A stretch of 26,173 nucleotides of DNA from a virus: the IMG/VR virus record IMGVR_UViG_3300009100_000040, positions 1 through 26,173 of that record. One strand, written 5' to 3'. A program made the position numbers and the translations under genes. This document shows positions 15,311-24,999 of the stretch, piece after piece (the stretch's first letter is position 1; each line of letters opens with the position of its first letter). The notes beneath the pieces are model-generated. The model was given only the letters and a program-made list of their open reading frames with translations, was not told the DNA's origin and made no database searches.

Positions 15311-15805
15311 CTACAGCGACAACGATCCCATGTTGCGGAAGTTGATGGTCGTGCCGCTGGTCACTGTCATCAAGAAACGGCGCGTGGTATTGGTCGCAAT
15401 CGTCGCCGTCCCGGTAATCGTCGTGCTGCCATCGCCCGCCGTCAGCGTCCCGGTCTGGCCGATGTTGTTGTTAACCACCGTGACCTCCTTGGCGAACGTG
15501 CCGTCCTTCACCAGCACATTTGAAAATGCACTGAGCAAGGAGTTGGTGGAGGGCAGGGTCAAGGTGAACCCGGCGCCGTTGGTCACGTCCAGAAAGATCA
15601 CGCCCTGCAAGACCTCGGCGGCGGTGAGCGCCTGATTGTTGCCCGACAGCGCGCCGGTCTTGGTGACCGGCGTGGGCGCGACCAGATTGGCGTTGTGCCA
15701 CAGCGCCGAGAGCGGCACCGCAGCCGAGGGCGCGACCCCGGTCAGGTTGGGGAACAGCACGCCCGGACGCAGCCACTGCTGCAACACGCTGGATAATCTG
15801 AGCAT
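15311..15805 (-). CDS. Small beta-rich virion protein sharing a module with the tailspike, 164 residues
   Basis: ATG 15805 (MLRLSSVLQQWLRPGVLFP) lies four bases after the previous gene's stop. The N-terminus resembles those of the capsid and scaffold-like proteins (Leu-rich, then a Pro-Gly turn and a further Pro). Residues about 60-164 are a beta module: GVIFLDVTNGAGFTLTLPS, then VTVVNNNIGQTGTLTAG, then TITGTATIATNTTRRFLMTV. The same order of segments occurs at the C-terminus of the tailspike and in the neighbouring 242-residue protein. Modules of this kind are often trimeric beta sandwiches in head fibres or decoration proteins. Its place next to the scaffold and capsid genes suggests a head decoration or fibre. 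I do not recognise a named family. Confidence 0.8.
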   Translation of the reverse strand: MLRLSSVLQQWLRPGVLFPNLTGVAPSAAVPLSALWHNANLVAPTPVTKTGALSGNNQALTAAEVLQGVIFLDVTNGAGFTLTLPSTNSLLSAFSNVLVKDGTFAKEVTVVNNNIGQTGTLTAGDGSTTITGTATIATNTTRRFLMTVTSGTTINFRNMGSLSL

Positions 15806-15809
15806 GGCG

Positions 15810-16538
15810 TCAGGCCACCATGATCGCGGGCCACGAGAACGCGCCCTGATAGGAGATGGTCGGCGCGGTGTTGAGCAGCGCGGGCCTTGCCGCCGTGATG
15901 TTGGGGACCGTGCTGTCGGTGGCAAATGCGGTTGCCACCGGCAAGGCATACGTCAGCTGATAGGCGTTGGGCACGCTCGCTACCGTAAACGTGCCGTTGA
16001 ATGCGCTGTTGCTCATGTTCGCCACGATCGCGCTGCCTGCTGCCGCCAGCCCGTGCGGCGCCGAGGTGGTGAGGGTGACCACGGCGCTGCTGTATGACAT
16101 GCCGATGATCGGCACCGGGCATGCGGTGAAGCGCCCGACATACATGCGCGCTGCCGTGGTGAGGATCGTGGTGGTCCCGGCCAGGGTGATGCCGCTGGCG
16201 GTGACCAGCGTATCCGTGCCGCTGTTCAGGTTGACGTGCAGGTGCGTCCACGTCGAGCCCAGCTGCGCGCCCGGATAGGCGGCATAGAGATCGGCGGCGG
16301 TGGACATGGTGACGTTCACCGCACCCGAGGCGCCGGTGTGGACGTGAATGCCGCCGAGTTCCATCGCGGGCGTCTTGGTGTAGGCCGCACCGGCTTGGGT
16401 CGTGTAGCCTGCGTTGCCATACGGCCCGCCGACGTACTGCGACCACGCATTCAACTGCTGGCTGATGGCGGAAAAGTCGGGCACGGCACCAGCGGCCATT
16501 TGCTGGTTGCCCGGACCAAAAGGCTGAAGAATTGGCAT
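15810..16538 (-). CDS. Beta-rich virion protein, putative head or tail fibre, 242 residues
   Basis: I chose ATG 16538 (MPILQPFGPGNQQ) because a GGGGAG box precedes it; the frame upstream has no such signal. Residues 1-60 are Gln/Gly/Tyr-rich. About 61-140 repeat the beta module of the adjacent genes (GGIHVHTGASGAVNVTMST, AADLYAAYPG, then ITLAGTTTILTTAARMYVG). About 145-205 carry a second small beta domain with the phage-type signature TLTTSAPHGLAAAGS...FNGTFTVASVPNAYQLTY. Two stacked beta domains fit a short fibre or decoration protein. It is the first gene after the 18-bp TTGACAC element and so may be the first gene of the head transcript. The exact role is unknown. Confidence 0.8.
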   Translation of the reverse strand: MPILQPFGPGNQQMAAGAVPDFSAISQQLNAWSQYVGGPYGNAGYTTQAGAAYTKTPAMELGGIHVHTGASGAVNVTMSTAADLYAAYPGAQLGSTWTHLHVNLNSGTDTLVTASGITLAGTTTILTTAARMYVGRFTACPVPIIGMSYSSAVVTLTTSAPHGLAAAGSAIVANMSNSAFNGTFTVASVPNAYQLTYALPVATAFATDSTVPNITAARPALLNTAPTISYQGAFSWPAIMVA

Positions 16539-16605: not shown

Positions 16606-19566
16606 TTACGGCGCCCGCGTGCATCGGCCCGTGGTAGCGGTCAGGAACTCAAAGAAGAAGTCGGCCTGCGTATTGGTTGCCACCACCATCGAGCCCACCA
16701 GCGTCCAACTCGCATCGGTGGCGTTGGTCACGGTGGTGCTGAACCCGGTCGTGTTCCAGATCGTGAAGACGTAGGCCGAGCCCGGCTGGCCGTAGGCCGA
16801 GTTGTACAGGTTCGCTACCGTGGGCAGTTGCGTATTGCGCCCCGCCGTCATGTTGTCGCGCCAATAAATCTGGCCCGCCATGAACTCGGTGTTCATGGTG
16901 ACGTTGGCATCGGTGGAGTCTTGGTAGGCCCGCCTGAACCCCGAGAGCTTCATCAGGTCGCGGCGCTTTTGCAGCATCGTGAAAGTGATGTTGCCCGCCG
17001 TGGTGTGGCGAATCTGCGCCTCCACCTCCATGCGCTCGGGGATGGACGTAAACCCCGCCATCGTGACGTTGAGCCCTGGAATCAGACCCCACAGATAGCC
17101 GCTGTTGTTCACCAGCGGCACCGTGACCGACTGACCCACCGCCAGCCCCAACTCCGAGATCAGAAGGGCGGCGGTAGGCAGCGTGTCGTTGGTGTTGGCG
17201 GTGAGCCCGCTGCGCGTCAGGCCGCACTGCTTGAGGAAGTAGGACGCCAACAGCGTGACCGCCCCCACCGTGCTCTCCGTGATCGCGTTGCTGGTCCACG
17301 ATTGATGCTTGGGCGTGGTCACCAGCGGCGACTGCGTGATGCCGCGAAGCCCCGTCATATCGACCGGGTCTTCAATCGAGATGCGCGGGGCGGCGTTGAC
17401 GGCGGGCTCGATGAAGTTGTTGAGCGTGTAGTTGGACGAGCGCAGGATGACCTGCTTCATCGTGTGATAGGCGGTGGAGGCCACCGAAGTATCGAAGTTG
17501 ATGCCGTCGTTGCTGGCGCTGGCGCCCGACTGCAGCGCGATGTAGGCTTGCGGGCAGGGCTGATCCAGCTTGATGACACCCGCATGGGTGGTGGCGGCGG
17601 TGAGGAAGACGTTGGGCAGCATGGTCACGGTCTGCCCCACCACCGTGTCCACCGTGTAGTTGCCCGCCATCGTAAAACCGTCGGCGGAAAACGAGTTGAT
17701 GCGCTCGTCGTTGTTGACCTGGGTGTCCGCCGTGGCGCCGAAGGCGCCCTGAAAATCCGAACTGACCCCCGCCACGATCACGACATTGCCCGGCGCGAAC
17801 GTGTGGACGACGTTGGGCTCCAGCACGCAAGTCAGCACCTGGGCTGCCGACACGGTGCACGACTGCAGCCACCGGCGCGCGCCCCGGTTGATGTCCCACA
17901 GGTCGATGCGCTGCCAAGTGTTGTGACCCGTGCCCTGCGTCGGGATGAACATGCCGTGCCCGCCCGCACGGACGACCCGCAGCCGGTTCACGTAGAAGTC
18001 GGCAAAGGCGAACGAGCCCCAGCCATCCCCGCCCGACTCCTCGATGTCCAACTCCTCGATGCTGCCCCCGATCATGGTGGCGGTGGTAACCCCGGCCATT
18101 CCCACGCCGCGCGCGTTCCAGATGCGGTTGCAGCCGGTGAACTTGATACGCGCCACCATCTTGCTGCGCAAGGTCGTGCTGGCAGGCACGAAGTTGACCG
18201 CCGCCTGCACAGTCGCGGGCCAGCCGGTGTAGGCTGCGCCTGCGTTGCCGCAGGTCCAGATCGTGTTCTCGTGGACGTTGATGTCCAGTGCCCCGAAAAA
18301 GCCGCTCTCCGCCGAGAAGTACAAGCCCGCGAGCAAGATGTCGCGGATCACGTTGTAGGCGATGGTGCAGGCACCCGCGCCGTTCAACGCGATGCCGCGC
18401 GCGCGCCCGATGTGGATCAGGTTGCTGATGATGGTGACGTTGCGCGTGCGCGGGCGCGTGGCGCTGCTGGTGTGGCACAGCAGCGCGATGCCATCGTCGG
18501 CGGTGTTGTGGATATAGTTGCCCTGCAGCCACAGGTTGTAGCCGTTGATGATGTGGATGCCGTCGGCCCCGGAGTCGTAGACCTCGCAGTTCCACATGCC
18601 CCCGTCATGCCACTGGTCGGTCGCGTACAGGCACACCGCCGAGGCCCAATACATCTTGACGCCGTAGAACCTGGCCGAGCAGTTGCGCAACTCGAAAATG
18701 TCGCTCTGGTTGACGTTGCGCTGGCGGTAGATTTGCGGGAACACCGCGCGCCCGCTGCCATCGAGCGGGTTGATCGGGTAGGTGACCGTGGTGTTGGGCA
18801 CCGCTGCCTGTGGCACTCCGCCAACGACAACTGCGATGGTGATGTTGATGCCGTTGGCATCGACCGCTTCGACGCGCGAAACGCCGGTGGCATAGGACGC
18901 GCCGCTCGCGCCCACGATCCAGGGCGTTTGCACCTGATCGCCGACCGCGAAGTCGTGCGGGCCGTCGGACACATCCAGCGTGAGCACCGCGCCGAACCCA
19001 TCGCCTAGCGCCGCCACTGCCGTGATGTCGTAGTGGCGGTACTTGCGGTTGCGAAATTCCCCGCCCTGCCACACGCTGGCCCCGCCGAAGATCGGGATGC
19101 TGGTGGCGCCGACTTGGTTGGCCTCGAAAACGACCCCCGGCGCGCAGTAGAGCATGCCGTTGCCGGTGATGCTGTTCCAGCGCCCGGTGTACTGATACAC
19201 CCCCGGCGTGAGCACCGCGACGTTCAGGCCCGCATTGAGCGCGGTGCAGATCGCCAAGCAACCCGTGAGGTTGTTGGTGACCCCGCCGTCGCCCGTCAGG
19301 TCGGTGGGCGTGACCCAGCCGCGCGACCACTGCGCGACGTTGGGCGTGCCTGGATTGATGGTGGCAACCCAGCCCTCGCCGAATCCGGTCATGTCGGGCA
19401 GGCCACCGCCACCCCCGCCCCCGCCGCCGCCGCCCCCGCCGCCGCCGAGAATCTGGCGCTGCAGGTTGTTCAGGATGCCGTTGAGCGAAACGACGTTGGG
19501 GCCTTGGCCGTCCCACTCCAGATCGGTTGCGGCCTCGATGGGTACATTGTCGAACAGGCGCGTCAT
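16606..19566 (-). CDS. Tailspike with right-handed beta-helix, 986 residues
   Basis: ATG 19566 is preceded by GGAGGAG overlapping the previous stop. Residues 1-40 are a short virion-binding start. Residues 41-55 are fifteen Gly in a row. A beta region follows (about 60-300), then a right-handed parallel beta-helix of the pectate-lyase type, visible in rungs such as SGADGIHIINGYNLWLQGNY, IHNTADDGIALLCHT and NVTIISNLIHIGRARGIAL (about 330-410) and later rungs to about 560. The last 95 residues form a separate beta module (AGQIYW...NTQLPT...WTLVGSMVVATNTQADFFF). Such trimeric spikes bind and often cleave host surface polysaccharide. I cannot assign catalytic residues or a substrate. Confidence is high for a tailspike and low for enzyme type. 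Confidence 0.9.
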   Translation of the reverse strand: MTRLFDNVPIEAATDLEWDGQGPNVVSLNGILNNLQRQILGGGGGGGGGGGGGGGLPDMTGFGEGWVATINPGTPNVAQWSRGWVTPTDLTGDGGVTNNLTGCLAICTALNAGLNVAVLTPGVYQYTGRWNSITGNGMLYCAPGVVFEANQVGATSIPIFGGASVWQGGEFRNRKYRHYDITAVAALGDGFGAVLTLDVSDGPHDFAVGDQVQTPWIVGASGASYATGVSRVEAVDANGINITIAVVVGGVPQAAVPNTTVTYPINPLDGSGRAVFPQIYRQRNVNQSDIFELRNCSARFYGVKMYWASAVCLYATDQWHDGGMWNCEVYDSGADGIHIINGYNLWLQGNYIHNTADDGIALLCHTSSATRPRTRNVTIISNLIHIGRARGIALNGAGACTIAYNVIRDILLAGLYFSAESGFFGALDINVHENTIWTCGNAGAAYTGWPATVQAAVNFVPASTTLRSKMVARIKFTGCNRIWNARGVGMAGVTTATMIGGSIEELDIEESGGDGWGSFAFADFYVNRLRVVRAGGHGMFIPTQGTGHNTWQRIDLWDINRGARRWLQSCTVSAAQVLTCVLEPNVVHTFAPGNVVIVAGVSSDFQGAFGATADTQVNNDERINSFSADGFTMAGNYTVDTVVGQTVTMLPNVFLTAATTHAGVIKLDQPCPQAYIALQSGASASNDGINFDTSVASTAYHTMKQVILRSSNYTLNNFIEPAVNAAPRISIEDPVDMTGLRGITQSPLVTTPKHQSWTSNAITESTVGAVTLLASYFLKQCGLTRSGLTANTNDTLPTAALLISELGLAVGQSVTVPLVNNSGYLWGLIPGLNVTMAGFTSIPERMEVEAQIRHTTAGNITFTMLQKRRDLMKLSGFRRAYQDSTDANVTMNTEFMAGQIYWRDNMTAGRNTQLPTVANLYNSAYGQPGSAYVFTIWNTTGFSTTVTNATDASWTLVGSMVVATNTQADFFFEFLTATTGRCTRAP
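19402..19446 (-). repeat. Poly-glycine codon tract (15 Gly) in the tailspike
   Basis: Fifteen consecutive GGN codons encode Gly 41-55 of the tailspike, between the short N-terminal anchor and the first beta domain. The tract mixes GGC, GGG and GGT. Its purity makes it liable to slippage and length change, and the peptide would be a very flexible hinge. Confidence 0.9.
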
Positions 19567-20360: not shown

Positions 20361-22517
20361 TCAGCCTCTGCTCATAACGTCTGGGGATGCGATCTGATCC
20401 TGATGAATGGCGCCGGGCGGCTGCTGGGCGTTGCGCAACGGCATGACCTGTGCGCCGGGTCGCGGGGTGCCAGCGACGCCGGGGCCCGTGCCCCCCGGCA
20501 CGCCGGGCGTTCCGTTGAGGCTGGGCCCCGCGATCTGCGCTTTTTGCTGCATTTGTTTCTGGTGATCCATGATGTGCTTGGCGAACGTGCGCGCCGGGTC
20601 GCCGGTGGCCTGCGCGCCCGCCATGTGGCTCATCATGTGCGCCACGTCGTTGTCCATCGGATGCACCGCCACCGAGAAACCGTTGGCGAGCAGTTCGTCC
20701 TCGACCGAGGCGGGCATCGACAGCTGATCGCGCTCATCGATGATGACCTTGGGCGCCAGCTGCGGGCCGAACACGGTGGAGATCATGTCCTCGATGATCG
20801 GGGTGATGTCCACGCGCTTGCCGTTCAGCGCCTCGGGCGGCACGCCGCGCAGCACGTTCATCGCCGCGATCTTCTGCTGGATGCGCGCAATCGAATTGGT
20901 GAAGTCGGTGCCGAGCCAGTTGAATTGATACTTCTTGGTGAACTGCTGGGGCTTCACCCGCTCCATGTGCGCCTGCAGCCCGACCTCCCCGCGCGTGAGC
21001 ACGTCCAACTCGTCCACCCGGTACTGCTGGTCCAGTTCGAAGATCAACTCCACCAGTGGATTCAACACGCGATCCTCCACGTCGGAGGCCACGTCGGTCG
21101 CGCCGATCTCCTGCTCCTGGCCCACGGCGGCGACCTGCGAGTTGTTCTTGCGCCCCTGCGGCATCGCGCCCAGCGCGTACTCGGTCACGTTCATCGATTG
21201 GCGCACCTGCATCTTCAAAAACTCGATGATCTGTTGCGCGTGCTGATACACCGGCGGCAGCGCCAAGGGCTGCGTGTCCTGCGGACTGGTCGGCCACACC
21301 GCCGCCATCGTCATGATCAAATTCTGGTACTGCGGATTTTTCTGCGGATCGGTCATGATGACCGGGTTGAGCGCGTACTTGGCCGCGTCGTTGCCGATGT
21401 TGTGAACGTCGTTGATGTCCCACTGCAGCGAGCGAACCGGCTCGATGACCGGCGTCCCCCAGAACGAGCCCGGCTGCTTTTTCACCGGCACGCTGATCAG
21501 CGGCAGGCGCTTGCACCAGTACGGATTGGCGAGGATGCCAAGAGGCACGCCGTCATGGCGATACCACACCACCGCAGGCTCGCGGTGCTCGCCGTCCAGT
21601 GTCAGCTTGAAGTGCGCCTCGTACACGCGCGCATGCACGTCGGTGCCGTCCACATCGATGCCCAGCTGCTCCAGCACCTTGACGCCGATGGACTCGGGAT
21701 TCTCGCCGTACTGATCGAAGGCTTCCATCAACTCGTCGCAGCGCACATTGACGAACACGCCACGGTCGATCATCGACTGGACTTTAGTCTCCGAATACCG
21801 ATGGCATATGACCACGATCTCGGCCTTGCGCAACTCGTCAACCGTCGGCGGTATGACAGCGACATCGAGCGTGGGCACCACCGAGATGTCCGGGCAATTC
21901 TCGGTGTACTCCTGGTCCTCGATATCGGCGTAGGTGTCATCGGGGCTTGGCGTGCCGTCATCGAGTTGCGCCTGCTTTTCCACCACGCGCGTGACCTGCT
22001 TTTTCTCGGCGTACCAATCCACGTACAGCTGCCACTGGCCGGTGACATCGCCCTGCGTGAGCATTGCTTCCAAGGTGGTGCGCAGCCCCGACTGGCGGAT
22101 GTAGTACTCCAGCAGCGAGATGGTGGCGTAGGGCGTCATGCCGTCGGACGACACGCCCTCCAGATTGCGGCCCCGCACCGGGAACAGCTGCTTTAGGATT
22201 TTGCGACCGCGTGCATCCACGCAATCGCGCACGACCGGCACGTAGCCCTGCGAGAAGCCGCTGTACGATTGGTTGTCATCGAGTCTGCAGTTGTAGATGT
22301 TCCAGTTGCTCTCGATCTTCAGCCGCCACTCCTCATCGTTGTCGTAGGCTTGGCGGATCGTCTTCCAGCGCGCCTCGGCCACGGTGAATGCGGTGCCGTC
22401 TTTGCGGCGTGCGAAGTTCTTGGGCTTCTTGGAACCCTTGGCAGGCTCGGTCTGATCGACCGAGTTCTCGATGTCCGCCTCGACCGGATCGGTCGGCGGC
22501 GGATTGCGCGACGCCAC
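20361..22517 (-). CDS. Portal protein, 718 residues
   Basis: The start is GTG 22517 (read as MASRNPPPTD), one base after the stop of a small basic gene; it has no strong Shine-Dalgarno, so coupling is likely. Residues 1-45 are Pro/Lys-rich. The body has the mixed helix and strand layout of podovirus portals, with a conserved-looking core PGSFWGTPVIEPVRSLQWDI followed by NDVHNIGNDAAKYALNPVIM (about 345-390) that fits the wing and stem region. The end is a His/Met/Gln-rich helix (HPMDNDVAHMMSHMAG, KHIMDHQKQMQQKAQ; about 610-655) and a Pro/Gly-rich tail, as seen in P22- and N4-type portals with long C-terminal barrels. It forms the dodecameric DNA channel at one capsid vertex and docks the terminase. 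Confidence 0.9.
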   Translation of the reverse strand: MASRNPPPTDPVEADIENSVDQTEPAKGSKKPKNFARRKDGTAFTVAEARWKTIRQAYDNDEEWRLKIESNWNIYNCRLDDNQSYSGFSQGYVPVVRDCVDARGRKILKQLFPVRGRNLEGVSSDGMTPYATISLLEYYIRQSGLRTTLEAMLTQGDVTGQWQLYVDWYAEKKQVTRVVEKQAQLDDGTPSPDDTYADIEDQEYTENCPDISVVPTLDVAVIPPTVDELRKAEIVVICHRYSETKVQSMIDRGVFVNVRCDELMEAFDQYGENPESIGVKVLEQLGIDVDGTDVHARVYEAHFKLTLDGEHREPAVVWYRHDGVPLGILANPYWCKRLPLISVPVKKQPGSFWGTPVIEPVRSLQWDINDVHNIGNDAAKYALNPVIMTDPQKNPQYQNLIMTMAAVWPTSPQDTQPLALPPVYQHAQQIIEFLKMQVRQSMNVTEYALGAMPQGRKNNSQVAAVGQEQEIGATDVASDVEDRVLNPLVELIFELDQQYRVDELDVLTRGEVGLQAHMERVKPQQFTKKYQFNWLGTDFTNSIARIQQKIAAMNVLRGVPPEALNGKRVDITPIIEDMISTVFGPQLAPKVIIDERDQLSMPASVEDELLANGFSVAVHPMDNDVAHMMSHMAGAQATGDPARTFAKHIMDHQKQMQQKAQIAGPSLNGTPGVPGGTGPGVAGTPRPGAQVMPLRNAQQPPGAIHQDQIASPDVMSRG

Positions 22518-22989: not shown

Positions 22990-24999
22990 CTAGCGCGGAC
23001 GGGCGTAAATGTCGGGCCGGGTCGTCATGAACTGGCGCCCGCCCACGCTGGCGTAGTTGGCTTGGGCCGCAGCCCCCTGCCCGCGCATGACCTGATACAG
23101 CATGCATTCCAGGCCCGCGACTGGCGTGCGGTGCAGCCCTTCGACCGGCTCGTCGGCCAGCCGCCCGGCTTTCATCGGGATGGCGTAGCCGCCCATCAGC
23201 CCGGCGATCAAGTAGCGGCACTCGGGCGAAACCAGCAACGCCCGCTGGCCCCGGATCGTGGTGCGCACGCTGTCGTTCAGGCAGGCGAGGCTTTCCTGAT
23301 AGTAGCCCCCGCGTGCTGGCTGTATGTTCAGTCCGCGCAGATGGCGGTTCAATTCCAGCCGCGTCCACTCATCGAACACGTCGGCAGGCGAGTAGGCCAC
23401 CAAGGAATGACGCCCAAGCTCGCCTTGCGCCGACATCCAGATCGAGCGAACCGCATCGGCCACCGCCCCCGGCTCCACCCACTCGCGCAGCAGGTAGAAC
23501 GCCAACCCCACCTGCTGCACCGCCACACAAGTGACCTCGGTGCTGGACTGGTTGAAGGCGAGCATGATCGCGCCGGAACGCTGGGGCTGCGCGTTGACGG
23601 ACACGTTGGCATCGGAAAACTCGCCGTACACCGGCTCACCGGGCCGCATCTTCACAATATAAGCCAGCGCGTTGACCACGTTGTCGTTCTTCGACGGAAA
23701 GCGGCGCATCTCCTCCACCAGCTGCTGGTGCGCGCCGCGCCCGCCCACCAGCACAATCGCCCGCGCCCGGCAAAACGGCTGCAGCGCCCCCCGGATGAAG
23801 TCGTGCTTGCTCTTGTCGTTGGGCGCGCGCAGATCGACCAGCGGCAGCACGGTGTTGCGCTTGATCATCTCGGCGCGGATCGGCTCGCGCATCCAGTCCT
23901 CCAGCGAATCGCTCTCCACCCCCAAGCCGATAGGCCGGTACTGCTCGTTCACATCGAACAGGTCGTTGATCATGTCGGACGGCTTCCAGTTCATGCCGCC
24001 CGAGAGCACGACGTAGATCGTGTTGCCGTGAAAGGCGGCAACCACCCGCCCGTAGTTGTCGGATTTCCGATCCTTGGTGCGCGCCGGATCGTACATCGCC
24101 CACACCGGCAGATGGTCGGTTGGCAGGGCCGGGCATTCCTGCAGGTCGCGCTCATCGAAGTCGGCGAGTTCGTTGGAGCGGGCCCGCAGCATATATTCAC
24201 GGTCGAAGTCGTCCGACAATCCCTGCCGTTCGAACAGCGCCTTTTGATTGCGAATCCACGGCAGGCCGAAGCGCGACTCCCACAGCGGCTGCGCATCCTC
24301 GTCCTCCGGCTCGCCCAAGCAGATCGGGAAGTACAACCGCATCCAGCTGTCGTCTGTGCGAAGGCGTACCGGCAGGCAGTCGGTACCCTCCGGCGTGCAG
24401 TTCACGCGGATGCGCCCGCGCTTGGGATCGAGCGCCGGGATCACCTCGGCGTACAACCACGACACGGTGGTATCGACCGCCTCCTTGGAGGCCACATCCC
24501 CGTTCAGCTTGTTCTCGATGTCGTCCAGCATGGCAAAGGTCGGGCGCGCGTCGTGGTGCAAGCGACCGCGCGGCGACTGGCCCTTGCCGTAGGCGTCGAT
24601 GCGAACCCCGTTGGTGAGCACGATGGAGTCCACTTTGTCGGTCGCGCCCTTGCCCAGCAGGGTGCCGAACATGCCGATCAGCATGCGGTTGGTCTTGAGC
24701 GCGAACTTGATGTTCTCCAGCTTTTCACACGCCTTGTCCCACGTCTCGCCAAACAGCAGGCCGAACGGGAAGTTGGCGTAACAGGCTTCGACCGCGATGA
24801 ACTCCTGCGCCTTGGTGGTCTTGGCGCTGCCGCGAAAGCCCTCGATCAGCACGCGCTCGTGCGCCGAGCGCCACGCCTGCACGATCTTCAGGTGGATCGC
24901 CGGGGTCGCGTCCTCGTGCTTGGCCGAAAACAGCATGTCCAGCGCGAGCGCGCGGTCCTCCGACATGCGCCGCAAAAGCTCGGTGCGGTCTAAATTCAC
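22990..24999 (-). CDS. terL: Terminase large subunit, 669 residues, with an extra C-terminal domain
   Basis: I chose GTG 24999 because it overlaps the previous stop (GTGA); the longer frame upstream lies over the membrane gene. The ATPase domain has Walker A GFRGSAKTT (54-62) and Walker B FAMLDD (155-160). The RNase H-like nuclease shows MYDPARTKDRKSDNYGR with Asp304, GVESDSLEDW with Glu362/Asp364, and SKNDNVVNALAY with Asp439. The packaging motor cuts concatemeric DNA and pumps it through the portal. Most family members end soon after this third motif, but here about 200 residues follow (455-669). These repeat the layout of the nuclease domain without its acidic residues. The terminase call is very strong. 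The duplicate-domain reading is my inference. Confidence 0.95.
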   Translation of the reverse strand: MNLDRTELLRRMSEDRALALDMLFSAKHEDATPAIHLKIVQAWRSAHERVLIEGFRGSAKTTKAQEFIAVEACYANFPFGLLFGETWDKACEKLENIKFALKTNRMLIGMFGTLLGKGATDKVDSIVLTNGVRIDAYGKGQSPRGRLHHDARPTFAMLDDIENKLNGDVASKEAVDTTVSWLYAEVIPALDPKRGRIRVNCTPEGTDCLPVRLRTDDSWMRLYFPICLGEPEDEDAQPLWESRFGLPWIRNQKALFERQGLSDDFDREYMLRARSNELADFDERDLQECPALPTDHLPVWAMYDPARTKDRKSDNYGRVVAAFHGNTIYVVLSGGMNWKPSDMINDLFDVNEQYRPIGLGVESDSLEDWMREPIRAEMIKRNTVLPLVDLRAPNDKSKHDFIRGALQPFCRARAIVLVGGRGAHQQLVEEMRRFPSKNDNVVNALAYIVKMRPGEPVYGEFSDANVSVNAQPQRSGAIMLAFNQSSTEVTCVAVQQVGLAFYLLREWVEPGAVADAVRSIWMSAQGELGRHSLVAYSPADVFDEWTRLELNRHLRGLNIQPARGGYYQESLACLNDSVRTTIRGQRALLVSPECRYLIAGLMGGYAIPMKAGRLADEPVEGLHRTPVAGLECMLYQVMRGQGAAAQANYASVGGRQFMTTRPDIYARPR

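Follow-up and report, generated by a model that had tools for sequence, protein, structure and literature searches.

The packaging motor protein gp16 of phage phi29 carries a C-terminal RNase H-type domain that is derived from a terminase nuclease and has lost its activity, and this dead domain has retained DNA binding (PMC7672431). In phage HK97, the nuclease ring is positioned immediately beneath the portal (PMC10359639), and in the large terminase subunits (TerLs) of D6E and T4 a C-terminal segment has been implicated in portal docking (PMC5727402). The D6E TerL nuclease (PDB 5oee, 5oe8, 5oe9, 5oea and 5oeb; PMC5727402) is located C-terminal to the ATPase, as is the tail domain described here, but it is an active, single-copy nuclease that ends in a short C-terminal arm, with no second domain. 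N4-type TerLs (Schitoviridae gp68; phrog_38) share a homologous ATPase and nuclease core with the TerL studied here (22–28 % identity), but are ~500–590 aa in length and stop right after the nuclease, without a tail.

The gene examined in this study is located on the complementary strand at positions 22990–24999 of a 26 173 nt viral sequence (IMG/VR record IMGVR_UViG_3300009100_000040), the whole of which is referred to here as the window. It encodes a protein of 669 aa, with a GTG start codon at 24999 and a stop at 22990, and phrog_38 (TerL) was matched over residues 28–462 (E 2.2e-44) in a PHROGs search. The ATPase domain (residues 1–285; 24145–24999, complementary strand) contains a Walker A motif, RGSAKTT (residues 56–62), and a Walker B DD pair (residues 159–160), with R56, K60, D159 and D160 being essentially invariant in aligned relatives. 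This domain is followed by a canonical RNase H-like nuclease (residues 291–457; 23629–24129, complementary strand; 118 bits against the nuclease HMM) with D304, E362 and D439 as catalytic residues, and translation confirmed both these residue numbers and the gene coordinates of the initial annotation. The assignment as TerL is based on the Walker A/B ATPase, the three-acid RNase H nuclease (with an offset third Asp) and the adjacent portal gene. The same TerL, with one base different, was also found on three other contigs of this virus. This sole difference lies in the codon at 23122–23124 (residue 626), which specifies Pro in the window and Leu in the three other contigs; Leu is present at this position in 77 of 97 tails.

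In the alignment of the tail-bearing clade, D304 was conserved in 126 of 126 sequences and E362 in 124, with Asp in the other two. The third catalytic Asp occupies column 440 in 124 of the 126 sequences, while the two remaining rows, which both represent this virus (the window TerL and L001), have N440 preceded by D439 (23680–23685 in the window), an offset that an alternative alignment takes up via a one-residue indel. Since the motif III Asp is displaced by one residue in this virus, its nuclease is less surely fully active than those of its relatives; judging from the alignment, it may be weakened, or the start of the helix may have moved by one residue.

Downstream of TerL, a portal-like protein is encoded at 20361–22517 on the complementary strand (phrog_332 and phrog_1216 in PHROGs). 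In 56 loci from the clade, counting that of the window, a relative of this protein follows TerL in the same way. Farther on lie genes for a major head protein (phrog_1357) and for tail proteins. No single-subunit RNA polymerase was detected, in a search that likewise missed its control. Two neighbouring ORFs (16606–19566 and 15311–15949) each displayed weak similarity to the head scaffolding family phrog_673, and one of them also to a tail spike family.

Beyond the nuclease, TerL continues for 209 residues (461–669; 22993–23619, complementary strand), in agreement with the ~200 residues initially noted. When the single sequence was used, this tail had no match in Pfam, PHROGs or PDB sequences, and tblastn against cultured phages returned nothing better than E ~5. 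For a central family member searched against phages and plasmids, no match reached 80 % query coverage, and all matches listed stopped short of the tail. Searches of the PDB with tail profiles likewise yielded no match, so the tail is tied to known proteins through its fold only. Structure prediction by AF2 from 97 tail sequences alone, with no nuclease sequences in the alignment, produced a model with a pLDDT of 92.6 and a pTM of 0.84, compared with a pLDDT of 36 when the alignment was withheld. According to DSSP, the model contains an RNase H core (residues 478–645; 23065–23568, complementary strand) with the order β1-β2-β3-αA-β4-αB…αC (the last helix), followed by a C-terminal β-hairpin (residues 648–659, model strands 188–192 and 195–199; 23023–23058, complementary strand) bearing a conserved GGR-F/Y motif, in which G654 is conserved in 96 of 97 tails.

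In a Foldseek search of the PDB, the 16 top-ranked matches were all D6E TerL (TM to query 0.53–0.60; E 2.6e-7 to 7.7e-6), followed by isolated nucleases of the SPP1, G20c and P22 TerLs amid retroviral integrases, RuvC and other members of the RNase H superfamily. Named matches in BFVD were mostly terminases, with a top TM to query of 0.70. Given that TerL nucleases are the best solved matches, the tail is predicted to adopt a TerL-type RNase H fold, and the model supports its designation as a second such domain of TerL. A tail with some other fold would have contradicted the initial reading, which the prediction upholds.

The positions in the tail that are equivalent to the catalytic places of the nuclease were derived from where the strands end and the last helix starts in the model, i.e. 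from topology and sequence order and not by superposition. The place of D304, at the end of strand 1, is occupied by N483 (23551–23553, complementary strand), a position with N in 72, G in 11, S in 11, H in 2 and Q in 1 of the 97 tails, and never D or E. The place of E362, at the end of strand 4, corresponds to S537-P538 (23386–23391, complementary strand), where the six commonest residues at 538 among the 97 tails are P (59), G (24), A (8), Q (2), S (2) and D (1). The place of D439/440, at the start of the last helix, corresponds to H623-R624 (23128–23133, complementary strand), with Y in 87, H in 5, S in 4 and A in 1 of the 97 tails at 623, and R in 61, K in 17 and A in 11 at 624. Acidic residues were thus present in none of the 97 tails at 483, in one or two at 538 and in none at 623, that is, in at most 2 of the 291 cells formed by three places and 97 tails, the commonest residues being N, P/G and Y. 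The loss of catalytic acids that had been proposed for the single protein therefore extends to the alignment, and the modelled positions support a tail domain that, family-wide, is without the acids needed to cut.

The family was assembled by iterative searches, starting from the N4-type core and proceeding to a looser core alignment, an alignment of eight sequences and a tail-only alignment. Among the first relatives, 80 N4-like IMG/VR loci, the tail was absent from all but the same virus. A separate N4-type TerL of 896 aa (L060, 2503–5190) was observed to contain an intein-like insertion between the nuclease motif KHDD and CIDTISML. The looser core alignment identified the first seven tail carriers, whose TerLs, at 32–37 % identity, are all tailed; the alignment of the eight tailed TerLs then recovered a large set from viral contigs, to which the tail-only alignment added further members. 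In total, 162 ORFs with the tail were found, representing at least 123 distinct tails, and in every case the tail is fused to a nuclease domain.

On a tree of TerL cores, the tail carriers form one clade (support 99) and the presence of the tail requires one change; the cores were cut at 70 % identity to 60 with and 60 without a tail, from 160 and 168, respectively, before thinning. Because the later searches were seeded with tailed TerLs, tail-less members of the clade are possibly under-sampled, yet none appeared in a core-only scan. The homologues sought on the basis of the single protein consequently exist in number. Within close pairs, dN/dS of the tail was ~0.11–0.27 (distant pairs, being saturated, were left out of account), indicating that the tail is kept under purifying selection. 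Full-length tailed TerLs were also found on three contigs of 40–43 kb binned as Methylococcaceae, Elusimicrobia and Burkholderiales (L251, L252 and L253, respectively); as these match many viral contigs of the clade in size, they are probably binned phage genomes, and their hosts are unsure. On a contig of an Eremiobacterota MAG (L256, 600–2360), a tailed TerL is broken across three frames, through either sequencing errors or decay.

With regard to the origin of the tail, the initial annotation had aligned four segments of the tail with four of the nuclease, in the same order. From the single protein this correspondence does not rise above chance (BLOSUM45 local score of 43, where shuffled sequences averaged 42; p 0.39); the nuclease HMM gave no match to the tail of this TerL, and single-sequence hhalign was at chance level. 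With family alignments the order does appear. In hhalign comparisons of family profiles, tail positions 22–100 paired with positions 24–100 of the clade's own nuclease (P 0.009), with scores of 23.1 (61 tails) and 21.8 (97 tails) at a probability of 3–4 %; column-shuffled controls averaged 13.9 (sd 2.5), and 2 of 200 scored as high for the larger tail alignment. Two of the proposed pairings, YGRVVAAF../TEVTCVAV.. and GLGVESDSLEDW/LVAYSPADVFDEW, fall in the same register inside this alignment, and the remaining two fit the secondary structure of the model. HMM searches run from tail to nuclease and from nuclease to tail recovered an in-register match of tail positions 22–62 to nuclease positions 24–64. 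The tail profile scored above 0 bits on 13 of 74 nucleases of its own clade (best 4.5) and on a single one of the 168 sister nucleases (best 0.1), where shuffled and reversed controls remained below 1.7 bits and ATPase controls reached 3.7 once, out of register; in the reverse search, the best tail scored 8.5 bits against the nuclease profile, with controls at or below 2.1. The similarity of the tail to TerL nuclease profiles is accordingly weak and in register with its own nuclease, and was found with neither sister nucleases nor profile libraries.

That the tail and its own nuclease weakly recognize each other in register, while sister nucleases are missed, favours an old tandem duplication, albeit through a weak signal obtained from mutually related sequences, and these profile comparisons make the clade's own nuclease the probable source of the tail. 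The nuclease would have been duplicated in tandem inside the TerL gene, once, in the ancestor of the clade, and the duplicate would then have shed all three catalytic acids and been retained as a non-cutting domain. A tail taken from the terminase of another phage would be compatible with the marginal sequence likeness to the clade's own nuclease and with the many TerLs that rank together in the fold search; such a capture is nevertheless rather unlikely, as the tail profile picks up the clade's own nucleases and not those of the 168 tail-less relatives, and no other family was matched in the profile libraries searched.

Concerning function, the reading that we favour, with some reservation, for the arrangement as a whole is that a duplicated, dead nuclease serves as a non-cutting portal adaptor and/or DNA-holding domain. 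TerL would form a ring of five beneath the portal with its nuclease tier on the portal side, so that a C-terminal dead domain would place five more copies at the portal end. These extra copies could act as an adaptor docking on the portal and/or line the channel, gripping DNA without cutting it, and the first nuclease would thereby be left free for concatemer cuts. The location of the tail at the portal side is drawn from analogy with phi29, HK97 and D6E/T4, and docking or DNA guiding as its specific role is accordingly put forward tentatively. The mean net charge of the tails was +1.8 against +0.6 for the nucleases, a small difference that would suit such a role, and a low-power test revealed no co-variation of tail and portal distances beyond that of the rest of TerL (partial correlation −0.02).

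Other roles were weighed against this adaptor reading. RuvC-like nucleases act as dimers, and a dead partner might pair with or cover the live nuclease until packaging ends. Such regulation of cutting would accord with TerL nucleases being closest to RuvC (PMC5727402), with the RuvC resolvases among the fold matches of the tail and with the intact live triad, in need of control, of most family members; it is unlikely, however, given that tail-less terminases control cutting anyway. More doubtful still is a tail that reads the packaging start on DNA and so stands in for a small terminase: none of the window genes tested was assigned to a small terminase by PHROGs, and an upstream ORF of ~110 aa is present in only 19 of 59 loci. 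Against this proposal, small terminases are easily overlooked because of their shortness, and no RNase H domain is known to act as a reader of DNA sites. Least probable is a tail that is still an enzyme and employs other acids, namely E631 (23107–23109, complementary strand), which lies in the last helix off the catalytic places and is invariant (97/97 and 126/126), D506 (D in 117/126) and E628 (E in 106/126). E631 and E628 are arranged along the last helix and D506 is on strand 3, away from the canonical metal site; moreover, residues 506 and 628 are E and A, respectively, in this virus, and none of these acids replaces D304 or E362.

The adaptor and/or DNA-holding reading would bear on a general difficulty, namely that cutting is hard to tease apart from DNA gripping and portal docking where a single nuclease domain does all; a live and a dead copy in one terminase would represent a natural separation of these activities. 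The tail is, in addition, a clade-defining domain useful for annotating uncultivated phages. As initially supposed, no terminase so arranged was encountered in the collections and literature searched: the live-plus-dead nuclease arrangement was absent from Pfam, PHROGs, cultured phages, plasmids, the PDB and BFVD as searched, and no description of a terminase with a pair of RNase H domains was found in the open-licence literature.

Compared with phi29 gp16, whose dead domain (~120 aa) is its only one, replaces the live nuclease and belongs to a motor that packages an uncut genome, the present TerL has a full-size dead domain (~200 aa) added after a nuclease whose acids are retained. At the gathering threshold, no Rfam family was detected in the window, which is a partial genome, and hence no phi29-type pRNA was found there; furthermore, phi29-type motors have no active nuclease domain, whereas the first nuclease described here keeps its acids across the family. 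More speculatively than the docking role itself, this clade of environmental tailed phages might package with a three-tier motor, composed of an ATPase ring, a live nuclease ring and a dead nuclease ring, in which duplication has parted cutting from DNA holding or portal docking. The closest known case remains phi29 gp16; the arrangement suggests a possible route to dead nucleases such as that of phi29, and a three-tier motor, if true, would naturally bridge ordinary terminases and motors of the phi29 type.
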